DNA of 64,000 bases from Hymenobacter sp. DG25B (lineage in GTDB: Bacteria > Bacteroidota > Bacteroidia > Cytophagales > Hymenobacteraceae): contig NZ_CP010054.1 in NCBI RefSeq assembly GCF_000801315.1, positions 992,001-1,056,000 of the forward strand, read 5' to 3'. A program made the translations under genes and the position numbers. Every line of letters begins with the position of its first letter. Position 1 is the stretch's first letter. The notes beneath the pieces are model-generated. The model ran no database searches. It was given only the letters and a program-made list of their open reading frames with translations, and was not told where the DNA came from. Shown here in pieces: positions 54,486-62,310 of the stretch.

Positions 54486-54529
54486 AAAAAGAGTCGGCCC
54501 TTCTGCACGCAGAAGGGCCGACTCTTTTT
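54486..54529. terminator. Bidirectional terminator with 21-bp stem
   Basis: AAAAAGAGTCGGCCCTTCTGC (54486-54506) and its perfect reverse complement (54509-54529) with a 2-base loop. It serves the DUF937-OmpA gene and the convergent S41 pseudogene, whose stop overlaps its end. Confidence 0.9.
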
Positions 54530-55626
54530 ACTTTTTAAGTAACTGCTGCGCTTCAGAAAGTGCCCGTTGCAGCACCGCGTCGCGCTGCTGTTGCAGCTCG
54601 GCCAGCGTGTTTTTCACGGCTACGGTGGGCTGCACGCCTGTGTCTTCCAGCAGCTGTCCGTCGGGGGTGGTGTAGCGTTGGTTCGAAAGGGTAACGTCCA
54701 GGCCGTTAGGCAGGCGTATGCTGTGCATATCGGAAAGCATGCCCTTGGTGGCGGTGCCCACCAGCGTGGTGCGCGGGCGCCGGGCCAGCGAAATGGTTAG
54801 GTCTTCGGCAGCGCTGGCAGTCTGGTCGCTGGTGAGGACCACCAGCAGGCCCAGAAAGCGCGGGCCGGTTGTCGGATTTACGTAGAAGGCCTGTTCCGCG
54901 CCAAACTGCTCGTAACCGCCAGGCTGGCGCAGGGCTTTGTAGTTCACCAGGCGGCGCTCCCGGAGGAAGTGCCCGGCCAGCTCGTAGCCGCTGTGCCCGC
55001 CGCCGTTGTCGCGCAGGTACCCGGCAACCGGCCAGCTGCCGCAGCGCCCGGCTGAACAGCTTTTCCAGCTTGCGGTGGTCTTTAAGCTCCTGAGCCTCGG
55101 TACCGATGGCGCCGGTTACATCGGCGAAGTTGCGGGTGAGGTGCAGGTAGCTGATGGTGCAGTTTCGGCTGGTGTACAGCACCTGCTTACCCTTAAAACT
55201 GGGGCCGAGGCCTTTTGCCGGGGTAAAACCGGCGGCTTGCAGCTGCTGGTAGGCCACGCGCCAGAACTCCGGCTGCACTGCCTTAAACGTTTGCTTGAAG
55301 GTGTTGCGGGCGCTTTCGCCCTTAAACAGAATGGTTTCGCCCCGCGAAATGGTGAGGTGCCCATCGCGCAGCGGCGTCAGCATTTCTCCGAACACGGCTA
55401 CCAGCTCCTCTTCGGTGGTTTGGGCCGAAACCCGGGGGCTGAAGATTTGATAGGAGGCATTCCAATCCACTTTCTTTAGCGGAAAGAAAGCGTAGTTGTC
55501 CCGAAAGGCCTGCCAGAACTGCTCAAAATTTTGTTCCGGGAGGCTAAGGGAGGCTGGTTGCGCGCGAGTGGAATAACTGCTGCTAATTGTAAGCAGCAGG
55601 CAGATCAGAGTAGAAATCAACCTCAT
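54528..55626 (-). pseudogene. S41-family C-terminal processing peptidase, frameshifted
   Basis: The N-terminal part reads from ATG 55626 (MRLISTLICLLLTISSS, signal peptide) through 'FEQFWQAFRDNYAFFPLKKVDW' and a PDZ-less S41 N-domain to about 55035. The frame then changes; the C-terminal part continues in another frame from about 55020 as 'GYLRDNGGGHSGYELAGHF' and ends at 54528, including 'SDQTASAAEDLT', where the Ser of SAxE is the nucleophile. The conserved IxD segment before RDNGGG is missing, so the break looks like a small deletion, not only a one-base error. Unless the assembly is wrong there, the protein cannot be complete. Confidence 0.75.
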
Positions 55627-55750
55627 AAAACAGCGTGGTGGTATAGCAGAGCCAGTCGGGTGTAGTAGGTAGATGCTTTTGGAGGGGCGCAGGTTGGATG
55701 TCGGGGTAAAAAGAATGTTTTGGAAGCCTTTGTGCTGTTCTCTTAAGCCA

Positions 55751-55838
55751 TTGGAAGGTAGAGACGCAATATTTTGCGTCTTAGCGTTGAACGATTCGCC
55801 CGCGAGGAGACGCAAAATATTGCGTCTCTACCTTCCAA
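55751..55838. repeat. Perfect 31-bp inverted repeat, GAGACGCAATATTTTGCGTC family
   Basis: Left arm 55751-55781 and right arm 55808-55838 are perfect reverse complements with a 26-base centre. Each arm also contains its own palindrome-like ACGCAATATTTTGCGT. It lies between the S41 pseudogene start and nuoN. Confidence 0.9.
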
Positions 55839-57316: not shown

Positions 57317-57420
57317 TTGTAGCGCGAAGCTCCAGCTTCGCGTATCGTTAAACGAATTCGTTGAACGATACTCGTTATGACGGTGCGTAGGAGGCGCGAA
57401 GCTGGAGCTGCGCGCTACAA
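57317..57420. repeat. Intergenic inverted repeat, GTAGCGCGAAG family, second copy
   Basis: Left arm 57317-57342 and right arm 57395-57420 are near-perfect reverse complements. The outer sequence TTGTAGCGCGAAGCTCC is that of the copy at 22086-22203. The centre has an AACGAATTCGTT palindrome. It sits in the nuoM-nuoN gap. Confidence 0.85.
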
Positions 57421-57425
57421 GCGAA

Positions 57426-58895
57426 TTAGCGTTTTACTACCTCGTTCAGAATATTCAGCACGCTGCCTTCCGACAGGTGCAGGAAGGTGTTCGGGAACAG
57501 GCCAATCCAGAAAACCAGTACTATGAGCGGCACCAGCAGGGCCAGCTCGGCGCCGGTCAGGTCGGTGAAGGTAGCAGTGTGCGCGGAGTCGGGGCCCAGC
57601 ATCACGCGCTGGAACATGCGCAGCAGGTACACCGCCCCCAGAATGATGGTAACACCGGCTACGGCGCCCATCCAGGCGTTGTACTGGTACACGCCGGCCA
57701 GCAGCAGAAATTCACCCACAAAGCCGTTGGTGAGTGGTAAGGCTACGATGCCCAGCAGCAGCACCAGGAAGCAAACCGTGAGAACAGGAGCCTGGCGCGT
57801 GAGGCCGCCCAGATCAGGAATAAGGCGGGTGCCGGTGCGGCGCTCAATGGCGTCAGCAATGAAGAACATACCTACCACGTTGATGCCGTGGGCCAGCATC
57901 TGAATGCTGGCGCCCTGCAGGCCGATTTGTGTGAGCGAGAATACGCCGGCCGCCATCAGTCCCACGTGCGAGAGGGACGAATAGGCAATCAGGCGCTTCA
58001 TGTCCTGCTGACGAATGGCAATGATAGCGCCGTAGATGATGCCGATGATGGAGAGAATCAAAACCAGATTCTGCCACTGACTCACGCCCATGGGTACCAC
58101 CGGCAGCAGCCAGCGCATAGTGCCGTAGATACCCATCTTCAGCATAATGCCCGAGAGCAGCATGGTAGCCGGGGCCGGGGCCTCGGTGTAGGTATCAGGC
58201 TGCCAGGTGTGGAAGGGGAAGATGGGCATCTTCACGGCGAAGGCCGCGAAAATCAGCCAGAACAGCCAGGATTGGGTTTCGGCCGGCAGGTTCAGGTTAT
58301 AGAACGAGGCCAGTTCCGAGTTATGCGCCGCAAGGCCGTTAGCCGCAGGGCCAGTCTGGAAATACAGGTACACAAAGCCCGCCAGCATAAACAGCGAGCC
58401 AACAATAGTGTAGAGGAAGAACTTGAAGGTGACGCGGGCCCGGTTAACGCCGCCCCAGATGCCGGCCAAGAAGTAAATCGGAATCAGGGCTACTTCCCAG
58501 AAGAAGTAGAACAGGAAAGCATCCTGAGCCGTGAATACGCCAATCAGGCCGGTCTGCATAAACAGCACCAGCGCATAAAAAGCCGACTCATTCTCGAAGT
58601 TGCGGCGGAAGGCACTCAGCAGAATAATTGGCACCAGGAAAGCTGTCAGCAGTACCAGTAGGAGGCTCAGGCCATCCATACCCACGTGGAAGTTGATGCC
58701 CGCGGAGGCAATCCAGTCGTGGTTGAAGGAGAGTTGCGCGGTATTGTTGCCGTTGAATGAAACAGCCGCGTAAACCGCCAGCGCAAATTCAATGAGGGCT
58801 GCGCCCAGCGCCGCCACCCGGGCCGCACGGCCTTTGAAGAAGTGCAGCAGCAGGGCGGCCGCCAAGGGCCAGAGTAAAAGAAGGACAGTGAGCAT
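57426..58895 (-). CDS. nuoM: NADH dehydrogenase subunit M
   Basis: A 489-residue antiporter-like subunit with about 14 helices. 'FFWEVALIPIYFLAGIWGG' holds the key Glu, 'AFAVKMPIFPFHTWQPDTYTEAPAPATM' the lysine and His cluster, and 'LIAYSSLSHVGLMAAGVF' the conserved helix. The gene is complete and starts MLTVLLLLWPLAAALLLHF. A second, truncated copy of its first 19 codons lies at 60207-60266. The first nine codons of the two copies differ in almost every third base, while the next 29 bases are identical, so the start of this copy looks newly supplied by the insert. Confidence 0.95.
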   Translation of the reverse strand: MLTVLLLLWPLAAALLLHFFKGRAARVAALGAALIEFALAVYAAVSFNGNNTAQLSFNHDWIASAGINFHVGMDGLSLLLVLLTAFLVPIILLSAFRRNFENESAFYALVLFMQTGLIGVFTAQDAFLFYFFWEVALIPIYFLAGIWGGVNRARVTFKFFLYTIVGSLFMLAGFVYLYFQTGPAANGLAAHNSELASFYNLNLPAETQSWLFWLIFAAFAVKMPIFPFHTWQPDTYTEAPAPATMLLSGIMLKMGIYGTMRWLLPVVPMGVSQWQNLVLILSIIGIIYGAIIAIRQQDMKRLIAYSSLSHVGLMAAGVFSLTQIGLQGASIQMLAHGINVVGMFFIADAIERRTGTRLIPDLGGLTRQAPVLTVCFLVLLLGIVALPLTNGFVGEFLLLAGVYQYNAWMGAVAGVTIILGAVYLLRMFQRVMLGPDSAHTATFTDLTGAELALLVPLIVLVFWIGLFPNTFLHLSEGSVLNILNEVVKR

Positions 58896-60239
58896 GCTTT
58901 ACTGTGAGGGTGCAGTGTCGAATGGAAGCGGGGTAAGTATTATTTGCGAAGCACCTTTTTTGCAAAATCAATTATCTTCCTTTTGGCTAGATAGTTCTTT
59001 CTTCTTTTTAGAAAAGCGCTAATAGCATCTGCCAAATCGTTGCGGCCTTGTTGGCGGAATATAGGATATAGATCTTCGTAGCAAATTTCGGCGTAACGGC
59101 TGCCAATATTTATAGAGAGCAACATTTGCGGATTAACCGTATGGCTAGGAAAAGCAGTACTATCCTTGAGTTTATTAAGTGCCTCCAATTGAAACATAGT
59201 GCGGACACATTTTTCACACTGTCCACAATTGAGTCTTCCCGTATTCGCAACGCAAACGCGCATGTTATTCAGACCAACCGGCCATTCGGCGACTATCCTA
59301 GTCTTTTCCAAACGGGATAATTCCGCTCCATCATGACGGATATTAAGATATTGGCTACTAAAGTTGGTATCTAAAATGGGGTGGGAACCCCAAGGCTGCA
59401 TATTAGGGATATCATAACTAGAGCCGATATAAATTGAGTCAATTTTATTGGCTAATGCTAATCCAGTAGCTGCCAGAGCGGCACCATGTGATTGATGCAT
59501 CCAGAATGTAATATTATCATTCAGATAACGGATGTTAGTATAAATAGGGACTAAGTTGATACCTGCTCCGGTGGCAATTTGTTCAAGTGCCTCTAATGCT
59601 ATTTCAAACTGTTGCTCATGATCGGTGTTGAGTTCATGAGATTGACCAGCAATGTCAAACCCAAAAACCATTACTCCTTCTTTTATGCGTTGGGGATGTC
59701 CTTCAGGAAATTGTAGATGATTGAGTCGCAGTGTACAGAGCGAATCTATACCACCCGAAAGGAATGAGGCCGCATATCTGGTATCACCAAGATTGTAGGA
59801 TAGAGTAGATCCTGCTTCAATCTCAGGAATTGAATGACCCGGTTTGTACCAGTAAGACAACCACTGCATATTGAGAAGTAAGCCACGCTTCAGTACTGGG
59901 CAAACTACACCCTCAACTTTAATTCTCTTCTCACCGGCAAACATTGCCGGTACTATAGCCCCGGATAAAAAAGGGTCGTAGGACTTGTATAAATGGTCAG
60001 TATACTTGTTGGGTACATCGAAATAGATTGTTTGGGTCACTTGCTTACTAGTTTCCCAAACGATCTGAGCAGAAAGACGGGTCAGATTCCCGTGTGAGTT
60101 GATGGAAAGTTCCTGAATGATCATGGCGCTGAGAAGCTTGTAAATTAATGGTCAACTATAAATAATATAATGTTGAATAAGATTGATAAGTGATGGTTTT
60201 TTTCAATTAAAAGTGCAGCAGCAGGGCGGCCGCCAAGGG
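58840..60239. mobile_element. 1.37-kb insert in nuoM bounded by 29-bp direct repeats
   Basis: An identical 29-base sequence occurs at 58840-58868 (inside nuoM codons 10-19) and 60211-60239 (inside the nuoM fragment); it begins AAGTGCAGCAGCAGGGCGG. Both copies sit 27 bases from an ATG in the same frame, so recombination between them would restore nuoM exactly (Trp9 would become Tyr). The segment between carries a fresh nuoM start and one AT-rich gene (58940-60124). No integrase, transposase or terminal inverted repeat is seen. This fits an insertion that replaced the 5' end of its target gene. Its mechanism is unknown. Confidence 0.6.
58940..60124 (-). CDS. PP-loop ATPase-like protein, QueC-like, inserted in the nuo operon
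   Basis: A 394-residue protein. Residues about 1-110 are a beta-rich N-domain ('LTRLSAQIVWETSKQVTQTIYFDV'). A PP-loop follows with 'ASFLSGGIDSLCTLRL' (SGGxDS, ATP pyrophosphate binding), then 'HQSHGAALAATGLALANKIDSIYIGSSYD' and 'NTGRLNCGQCEKCVRTMFQL' (CxxC zinc knuckle as in QueC or tRNA thiolases). The C-terminus is basic ('KRRKNYLAKRKIIDFAKKVL'). G+C is about 42% in a line counted by hand, against about 60% for nuo genes. Related proteins occur alone or in polysaccharide and defence loci. It activates a substrate by adenylation, but which is unknown. Same strand as nuo, so probably cotranscribed. Confidence 0.75.
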   Translation of the reverse strand: MIIQELSINSHGNLTRLSAQIVWETSKQVTQTIYFDVPNKYTDHLYKSYDPFLSGAIVPAMFAGEKRIKVEGVVCPVLKRGLLLNMQWLSYWYKPGHSIPEIEAGSTLSYNLGDTRYAASFLSGGIDSLCTLRLNHLQFPEGHPQRIKEGVMVFGFDIAGQSHELNTDHEQQFEIALEALEQIATGAGINLVPIYTNIRYLNDNITFWMHQSHGAALAATGLALANKIDSIYIGSSYDIPNMQPWGSHPILDTNFSSQYLNIRHDGAELSRLEKTRIVAEWPVGLNNMRVCVANTGRLNCGQCEKCVRTMFQLEALNKLKDSTAFPSHTVNPQMLLSINIGSRYAEICYEDLYPIFRQQGRNDLADAISAFLKRRKNYLAKRKIIDFAKKVLRK

Positions 60240-60266
60240 ATAAAGCAAGAGTAAGACAGTCAGCAT
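60207..60266 (-). pseudogene. Truncated 5' end of nuoM
   Basis: From ATG 60266 it reads MLTVLLLLYPLAAALLLHF and stops at TAA 60207, 20 codons. It matches the first 19 residues of intact nuoM except Tyr9 for Trp9. It lies 61 bases after the nuoL stop, where nuoM should begin, so it is probably the original nuoM start cut off by the insert. Confidence 0.8.
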
Positions 60267-60327
60267 ACGTAATCTGGATGCGGAAGAAACCGGTAGAAAA
60301 ATGCCCGGCCCGGCCGTCAGAATAGAA

Positions 60328-62310
60328 TTAGAATTTCACGAAGTTCAGCGCCAGTACCAGCACGATACCCACCACCATCAGGATGAGGTAGGTTTCCACG
60401 GAGCCGGTTTGCACGTAGCGTAGCAGCTGTCCGCCGCCCATAGTCACGCGGCCGAAGCCGTTGACAATTGGGTCGATGATGCCGTTTTCCACGAAGCGGT
60501 AGAGACCCCGCGAGAGCCACATGATGGGGCGCACGATCAGAGCATTATACAGCTCGTCGATGTAGTACTTGTGGTAAATCAGGTTTTCGAGGAAGCCGCG
60601 CGACTCACCATCTTCCACTGGGCGCACGCCGCGGCTCACGTACTGCACGTAGGCCAGGATAATGCCCAGCAAGCCGGCACCCACGGAAAGCCCAATGAGC
60701 ATGTACTCCGTAGCATGGTCAACCTCGGCACCGAAAGCAGCCGGGTTCAGCTTCTGTGAGTAAGCAAAGAGGGGAGCGAGGTAGTCGGCTAGGTAGCCTT
60801 TGCCCAGCACCAGCGGCGCATTCATGAAACCACCCACGGCGGCCAGAATAGCTAGGATAATGAGCGGCAGCGTCATGCTGGCCGGTGATTCGTGCAGGTG
60901 GTGCTTCTGCTCCTCGGTGCCCCGGAACTCGCCGAAGAAGGTGAGGAACAGCAGACGGAACATATAGAAGGCCGTCAGGAAAGCGGTGAACAGGCCCACG
61001 GCGTACAGCACTTTGTTATGCTCGTACACGTGCAGCAGGATTTCATCTTTCGAGAAGAAGCCCGCGAAGGGCGGAATACCGGCAATGGCCAGGCAGCCAA
61101 TCAGGAAGGTAATAAAGGTGATAGGCAGCGCCTTGCGCAGGCCACCCATGCGGCGCATGTCCTGCTCATTGCTCATGGCGTGAATCACGGAGCCCGCGCC
61201 CAGGAACATCAGCGCCTTGAAGAAGGCGTGGGTAAGCACATGGAACAGGCTGGTGCTGTACCCCATAACGCCCAGCGCCAGGAACATATAACCCAGCTGC
61301 GACACGGTGGAGTAAGCCAGCACCTTCTTAATATCGTTCTGTGCCAGACCAATAGTAGCGGCAAACAGCGCCGTGGCCGCCCCAATAATGGCAATAACTT
61401 CCAGCGTATGGGGAGCCAGTGTGAAGAGCACGTTGGCGCGCAGAATCATGTAGATACCCGCCGTTACCATGGTGGCGGCGTGAATCAGTGCCGAAACCGG
61501 GGTGGGGCCGGCCATAGCATCGGGCAACCAGGTGTAGAGCGGCAGCTGAGCCGATTTACCGGCGGCACCCACGAACAGCAGCAGCGTAATGGCCGTCACG
61601 GTCATGGTGCCAATCTGCAAGGCGCTGGCCTTCTGGAATACCTCGGCGTACTGCACCGAGTCGAAGGTGAGGTAAATCAGGAAGATGCCGAGCAGGAAGC
61701 CCAGGTCACCGATGCGGTTGATAATGAAGGCTTTCTTGGCGGCGTTGTTGTAGCTGGTGTTCTTGTTCCAGAAGCCGATAAGCAGATAGGAACAGAGCCC
61801 CACGCCTTCCCAGCCGATAAACAGAATCACGAAGTTGGCGCCCAGCACCAGCACCAGCATTGAGAAAACGAACAGGTTCAGAAAGGAGAAGAACTTGCCC
61901 ACGTTCTCATCGTGGTGCATGTACCCGATGCTGTACACGTGAATCAGGAAGCCCACGCCCGTTACCAGCAGCAGCATAATCAGGCTGAGCTGGTCAATCT
62001 GGTAGGAGAAAGGAATCTGTAGGGAGCCGACGGAAATCCAGTCGAACAGCTGCACCGTGTAGGCCTGGTGGGCAGTAGCGCCGGGGGCAATCCACTGGGC
62101 CGTGGGGTGCTGAAACTCCCAGAACAGCAGGACTGAAATCAGGAAGGAGCACAGTACGGTGGCGCTGCCGATGAAGCCGGCCACGGTGCCGGAGAGCCGG
62201 CGGTTGAGCAGGCCGTTAATCAGGAAGCCCAGGAACGGCAACAGCGGAATGAGCACGTACAGCAAAGCAGAGTACGGGGCGCCGGCAGCGGGTATAACAG
62301 TTTCTTGCAT
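60328..62310 (-). CDS. nuoL: NADH dehydrogenase subunit L
   Basis: A 660-residue antiporter-like subunit with about 16 helices and the C-terminal lateral helix extension typical of NuoL. 'FFSFLNLFVFSMLVLVLGANFVILFIGWEGVGLCSYLLIGFW' holds the conserved acidic residue, 'AGKSAQLPLYTWLPDAMAGPTPVSALIHAATMVTAGIYM' the lysine/His helix, and 'LAYSTVSQLGYMFLALGV' the antiporter motif. It pumps protons in complex I. nuoK lies 88 bases upstream. Confidence 0.96.
   Translation of the reverse strand: MQETVIPAAGAPYSALLYVLIPLLPFLGFLINGLLNRRLSGTVAGFIGSATVLCSFLISVLLFWEFQHPTAQWIAPGATAHQAYTVQLFDWISVGSLQIPFSYQIDQLSLIMLLLVTGVGFLIHVYSIGYMHHDENVGKFFSFLNLFVFSMLVLVLGANFVILFIGWEGVGLCSYLLIGFWNKNTSYNNAAKKAFIINRIGDLGFLLGIFLIYLTFDSVQYAEVFQKASALQIGTMTVTAITLLLFVGAAGKSAQLPLYTWLPDAMAGPTPVSALIHAATMVTAGIYMILRANVLFTLAPHTLEVIAIIGAATALFAATIGLAQNDIKKVLAYSTVSQLGYMFLALGVMGYSTSLFHVLTHAFFKALMFLGAGSVIHAMSNEQDMRRMGGLRKALPITFITFLIGCLAIAGIPPFAGFFSKDEILLHVYEHNKVLYAVGLFTAFLTAFYMFRLLFLTFFGEFRGTEEQKHHLHESPASMTLPLIILAILAAVGGFMNAPLVLGKGYLADYLAPLFAYSQKLNPAAFGAEVDHATEYMLIGLSVGAGLLGIILAYVQYVSRGVRPVEDGESRGFLENLIYHKYYIDELYNALIVRPIMWLSRGLYRFVENGIIDPIVNGFGRVTMGGGQLLRYVQTGSVETYLILMVVGIVLVLALNFVKF

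Follow-up and report, generated by a model that had tools for sequence, protein, structure and literature searches.

A PP-loop gene in a gene-turnover slot between nuoL and nuoM of Hymenobacter sp. DG25B, and the scar of its probable arrival by recombination

Between nuoL and nuoM of Hymenobacter sp. DG25B, within the complex I (nuo) operon, lies a single AT-rich gene for a QatC/QueC-like PP-loop protein, preceded by a truncated second copy of the nuoM start. The locus belongs to a stretch of 64,000 nucleotides (nt; contig NZ_CP010054.1 of assembly GCF_000801315.1, positions 992,001 to 1,056,000; hereafter the window, with coordinates counted from its first letter), in which the minus-strand gene order is nuoK, nuoL, nuoM stub, PP-loop gene, complete nuoM and nuoN. 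The PP-loop gene is probably the present occupant of a gene-turnover slot and arrived by homologous exchange in nuoM together with an illegitimate joint on the other side. The donor fragment would have come from a related species and would have run from a nuoL stop codon through the PP-loop gene and the remnant of another gene (APSQ and stop) into nuoM. On the nuoM side, ordinary homologous recombination would have taken place at about nt 163-236 of nuoM, as the mosaic described below supports; at its other end the fragment would have been attached within the resident nuoM, at a stretch of T's that follows codon 18, with no real homology. The resident nuoM start would thereby have become a 19-codon stub and the working nuoM would have acquired a foreign start. 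Neither a recombinase nor an attachment site would be necessary for this route.

The first-pass annotation, made from the letters alone, had described an AT-rich PP-loop gene between nuoM and a duplicated nuoM start with 29-bp repeats, and this layout was confirmed. The inserted gene (the cargo; 58940..60124, on the minus strand like all features of the locus) encodes 394 amino acids (aa) at 42% G+C, against about 53-63% in the flanks. It is the sole open reading frame (ORF) of at least 80 aa between the two copies of the nuoM start, in agreement with the earlier remark that no recombinase lies inside. An AT-rich leader of 82 bp (60125..60206) precedes it, and 5' of the leader is the stub (60207..60266), 19 codons and TAA, which reads MLTVLLLLYPLAAALLLHF and stop from 60266 to 60207. 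Complete nuoM (489 aa) occupies 57426..58895. The two starts form a direct repeat of 56 bp (58840-58895 and 60211-60266; 86% identical, 1371 bp from start to start), inside which 29 bp are exact (58840-58868 and 60211-60239), and they differ at 8 of their first 27 nt. The nuoM-head copy in the gap reaches z = 22 against shuffles of the gap and is therefore not due to chance. An assembly artefact or chimera, judged from the assembly alone, is an extremely improbable source of this structure: the host genome of 4.36 Mb is in 4 contigs, with completeness of 100% and contamination of 0.79%, and 40 relatives hold genes at the same junction. From orientation and spacing it is plausible that the PP-loop gene is part of the complex I transcript.

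The junction was compared in a genus set of 120 genomes, own included, all of which have nuoM and nuoL. Sixty-nine stretches were fetched; one (G254, another genus) was unused, and the other 68 represent 67 genomes, G129 being present twice. In 63 of the 68 nuoL lies directly 5' of nuoM, and five, in which just one gene of the pair was found, were dropped. The resulting 64 junctions (the window and 63 relatives, a selection that favours near relatives) span 27-1432 bp, whereas nuoK and nuoL of these loci are 72-166 bp apart. Nineteen are empty (at most 62 bp), 41 occupied (at least 200 bp) and four in between (92-132 bp); two further junctions, of G492 (occupied) and G023 (96 bp), were examined afterwards and stand outside the 64. 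Gene content at the slot is thus variable between conserved core genes. G+C of the occupied gaps has a median of 0.44 (range 0.29-0.60; below 0.40 in 18 of 41), against a nuoM median of 0.60, and the longest ORF is co-directional with the operon in 38 of 41. At E 1e-3 the 38 cargo proteins, window's included, fall into 13 clusters. The largest, with 18 members (slots of G015, G018, G525 and 15 others), contains an Imm_superinfect-SHOCT protein, and most of the member genes overlap the start of nuoM with their stop codon. In the three other occupied slots, G482 has short ORFs only, no ORF of 40 aa was found in G035, and in G017 a minus-strand ORF is longer than a gene reading like the G031 cargo. 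Pfam, run on ten cargo proteins, gave two above cut-off, Imm_superinfect with SHOCT and Glyco_transf_25. The three nearest states are the PP-loop gene in the window, an empty slot in G501 and an Imm_superinfect-SHOCT gene in G015.

Outside the genus, four of six junctions from other families of the order were readable, with gaps of 8, 14, 50 and 1300 bp. The last, L182 (G046), holds a 399-aa membrane-like ORF at 37% G+C, and the slot may therefore predate the genus. In part of the genus (G129/L071 and similar genomes) nuoM does not adjoin nuoL. In G129 nuoL (minus) and nuoM (plus) are about 25 kb apart on one contig, and an inversion or move would therefore have split the operon at the same junction.

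Comparison of this junction in relatives had been proposed by the first-pass annotation, with a single nuoM and no PP-loop gene expected at empty sites; G501, the closest relative, has exactly this arrangement. The 61-bp junction of the window between nuoL and the stub (60267..60327) equals that of G501 at 59 of 61 bases, 2 differing, and the first 27 nt of the stub are nearest to G501 (22/27; next best 21, among 42 relatives compared). Complete nuoL (60328..62310; 660 aa) is of the resident type, its last part (about 200 nt) together with the junction being closest to G501 among six relatives compared (0.98-1.00); further upstream in nuoL, G015 is at times closer to the window than G501.

The start of the working nuoM behaves differently from the stub. 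At sites where G501 and G015 agree, working nuoM departs from their consensus 2 times in 54 (alignment columns 1-60), 24 times in 118 (columns 61-198) and 53 times in 1173 beyond. Its identity to G501 and G015 passes from 0.53 and 0.60, respectively, to 0.97 and 1.00 at column 180, corresponding to nt 162 of nuoM in the window. At column 57 the working copy has C, as do 40 other genomes, and G501 and G015 have T; the stub also has T, but this position falls inside the joint. These data support a mosaic in which the working nuoM is foreign-looking over its first ~160 nt (nt 1 to ~162; 58734..58895) and native in the rest, with the exchange point between nt 163 and 236 (58660-58733). With the switch at column 180, foreign-looking DNA would therefore span the left joint, the cargo and about 160 nt of nuoM. 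Two earlier proposals, that the 5' end of the working nuoM arrived with the insertion and that one of the two 5' ends came from a diverged source, are borne out by the mosaic and by a stub that is G501-like where the working start is foreign-looking.

At the left joint the stub reads CAC TTT TAA and then passes into the AT-rich leader, at a position where G501 and G015 have CACTTTTTC. The joint lies at a run of four T's (60209..60212), at which resident nuoM gives way to TTTTAA, like the nuoL end of occupied slots. Generally, nuoL ends in TTTTAA or TTTTAG in 31 of 41 occupied slots vs 2 of 19 empty ones (Fisher P 2.7e-6, kinship ignored). The incoming fragment may thus have begun at TTTTAA of a donor nuoL and been linked to the T's of the resident gene. 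The own genome encodes DprA and ComEC domains, as do most control genomes, which allows DNA uptake and does not demonstrate it.

Homology-facilitated illegitimate recombination, as described in PMC3240628, usually joins DNA at 3-10 bp of microhomology, and resident DNA is generally deleted. The window is alike in homologous exchange on one side, the nuoM mosaic that switches after column 180 in a variable region. On the other side the run of four T's may represent a joint with at most a few matching bases, to a donor end that is inferred. Several points weigh against a single arrival of this kind. The loss of resident DNA that the same text describes is unseen, nuoL end, junction and nuoM start all being kept and the nuoM start doubled. 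A 4-bp match at the joint is weak on its own, the association of nuoL ends with occupancy carries no correction for relatedness, and no donor with the predicted left end (nuoL TTTTAA followed by the leader) was found among the relatives compared. The P value of the mosaic for columns 1-198, 7.5e-8, is too strong because one rate was assumed along nuoM; the mosaic region is variable, and within columns 61-198 G501 resembles G015 to an unusual degree (118 of 120 sites), so that an exchange may have occurred within the G501/G015 lineage. In the working copy, codon 11 (TTG) looks native among neighbours that do not, and is common to both window copies and G015; it may have arisen by gene conversion between the copies or from a donor of the same clade. 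The likeness of G501 and G015 in this variable region, and a codon 11 at odds with a single clean tract, would suit some other history: two events (e.g. exchange of a nuoM allele and later insertion), a donor that already bore the stub, or an exchange that took place in the lineage of G501 and G015. Such a history is unlikely in view of the G501-like stub and the G501-like junction before it, and of a working copy that has the commoner base of 40 other genomes at most differing sites below column 181.

A bordered element was the mechanism favoured by the first-pass annotation, which had taken the 29-bp repeats as the limits of an excisable insert. A site-specific mobile element or cassette, moved by a recombinase in trans with the 29 bp at the nuoM start as its core, would account for direct repeats at both ends and for a replacement 5' end, and a border sequence recurs 5' of nuoM, as such an element would have it. 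This explanation is nonetheless very improbable. Foreign-looking DNA extends past the 29-bp repeat to about nt 160; the insert has no other ORF of at least 80 aa; and the cargos found in the slot are unrelated. The 29-mer, searched with at most 3 mismatches, occurs in exactly two places of the own genome, both at this locus, contrary to the idea that the core would be found beside other insertions. Among the 42 gaps at the junction that measure 120 bp or more, a convincing nuoM-head copy is present in one, the window, and the 41 others are without. A candidate in G474 (z 4.6 over 21 nt) was rejected as the start of its own cargo gene, and in the remaining slots G504 reaches z 3.9 and others are lower. 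In these 42 gaps no nuoL tail exceeds z 3.8.

The recurrent border itself proved to be the end of a cargo gene. Since GCACCCTCACAGTAAAGC (58896..58913 in the window) stands between nuoM and cargos that are dissimilar, an attachment site was suspected initially. With at most two mismatches, GCACCCTCACAGTAAAGCATGCT occurs in 11 of 120 genomes, one copy each, at the nuoM start by coordinates; G507 has a variant that was not counted. In G517 and G489 the same bases encode APSQ and stop, the last codons of the cargo gene, and the attachment site was rejected on these grounds. In the other nine genomes the cargo gene ends before the border, and one of the nine, G030, carries a relative of the G517/G489 cargo gene. 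The simplest reading of the right border is a trace of an earlier occupant, retained 5' of nuoM. A second recurrent border (such as AACAACCTGATTAGCTA) was rejected as an attachment site in the same manner, being the NNLIS-stop end of an Imm_superinfect-SHOCT gene. Some integrases target the 5' part of a gene and provide it with a new 5' end, SXT-type elements in prfC being an example. The window is similar in that the 5' end of the working gene would have come with the insert; it differs in that the insert holds no integrase or other recombinase gene and no attachment site limiting the foreign DNA, which enters the gene body. Of the earlier insertion reading, an insert with a replacement 5' end stands, and the bordered element as its mechanism does not.

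The exact 29 bp, codons 10-19 of nuoM, appear to reflect strong conservation of that stretch of the gene, to which gene conversion between the copies perhaps contributed. In 42 relatives without the duplication, 25-29 of the 29 bases are identical. Codons 11-20 have the highest codon conservation of all ten-codon windows of nuoM (0.90 in 43 sequences), expressed as the fraction of same-residue comparisons in which codons agree. The idea that the start of nuoM is specially maintained as a DNA site was considered and dropped as unneeded, since other ten-codon windows reach 0.85.

The cargo protein contains the PP-loop motif SGGIDS and four cysteines (C291-x8-C300-x2-C303-x2-C306) that are invariant in 20 sequences and correspond to the zinc motif C(x)8CxxCxxC of QueC as worded in PMC13329287. 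Within the window the Pfam search covered nuoK, the PP-loop protein and nuoM, the remaining gene names being assigned by reading. The cargo did not match the Pfam QueC model PF06508, and only DUF6395 was listed (E 0.065, below cut-off); PADLOC gave no family at E up to 1 and NCBIfam none above cut-off. Against solved structures the single sequence had no match and a 20-sequence profile met QatC only at E 0.52. By itself, Foldseek matched no structure at E 0.001 or lower (best 6scy_A, 0.053); when 1000 Foldseek candidates were re-examined with VIA-align, QatC came first, about 1 Z unit above QueC. In the own genome there is no clear canonical QueC. Two ORFs of ~419 aa are borderline matches (21.8 and 21.5 bits, or 22.6 and 22.2 with neighbours; cut-off 22) and presumably represent other PP-loop enzymes; two PTPS-domain genes are also present.

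QatC of qatABCD and Cap9 of the type IV cyclic-oligonucleotide-based antiphage signalling system (CBASS) have a QueC fold and act on a protein N-terminal glycine, according to PMC13279940 and PMC13329287. The cargo has the features reported there: its QueC-like core bears SGGxDS and four cysteines and is extended at both the N and the C terminus. QatC is its best structural match. It differs from QatC in having no PADLOC match, in lacking qatA, qatB and qatD beside it (direct neighbours are nuoL and nuoM; the search covered the locus and not the rest of the genome), and in a cysteine spacing that is that of canonical QueC, unlike that of the QatC described in this literature. Fold and motifs together indicate that the cargo is likely a stand-alone QatC/QueC-like PP-loop enzyme with ATP-dependent chemistry. 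It might modify a protein or a cell-surface compound, which is a guess.

The PP-loop gene is present in 3 of the 120 genomes, namely the window, G129 and G499, and is 3' of nuoL in all three, at 63 bp after the nuoL stop in G129 and 1337 bp in G499. nuoM is not adjacent to it in G129 or G499. In G499 an Acyl_transf_3 gene lies between nuoL and the PP-loop gene, and between the acyltransferase and PP-loop genes is a decayed nuoL tail (43/60 nt, z 6.1), the only one above z 4.5 in 41 nuoL-downstream loci. This duplicated nuoL tail is the mirror of the window's stub scar. Relatives of the PP-loop gene in L036 and L040 lie near what by eye are flippase, ABC-transporter or sulfotransferase-like genes, and each has another similar gene nearby.

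Elsewhere in the window, an inverted repeat with 26-nt arms, 96% complementary and 52 nt apart, lies between nuoM and nuoN (57317-57420). At 54528-55815 two overlapping minus-strand ORFs (54706-55815 and 54528-54947) look by eye like one S41-type peptidase broken by a frameshift.

Hotspots of gene turnover without mobile elements are known from the literature. The window is like them in fast gene turnover at one place, in an insert where no recombinase is seen, and in recombination in a flanking core gene with related DNA as the source; it differs in that the slot is inside an operon for an essential-type enzyme and mostly takes one gene per occupancy. It fits this kind of hotspot, and resembles homology-facilitated illegitimate recombination without the deletion. 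No description of this nuoL-nuoM slot was found in the literature searched, partly judged by title and start of abstract, a search in which PMC5635113 turned up.

Among hotspots without mobile elements, a slot for single genes within the complex I operon that retains a readable scar is an unusual variant. How bacteria gain single foreign genes within essential operons in the absence of mobile elements is as a rule deduced from many-genome averages. This junction keeps the scar of an apparently single event; the slot of the sister is empty, one flank is a mosaic and another species has a mirror scar, so that the route can be read base by base. The cargo, in addition, points to a branch of QatC/QueC-like enzymes outside known defence systems. 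As a tentative possibility, the back of nuoL could serve as a docking port where single foreign genes are placed, swapped between species through recombination in the flanking nuo genes and sheltered in a well-expressed transcript without a mobile element; one passenger would then represent an undescribed stand-alone QatC-like branch, possibly engaged in cell-surface chemistry.

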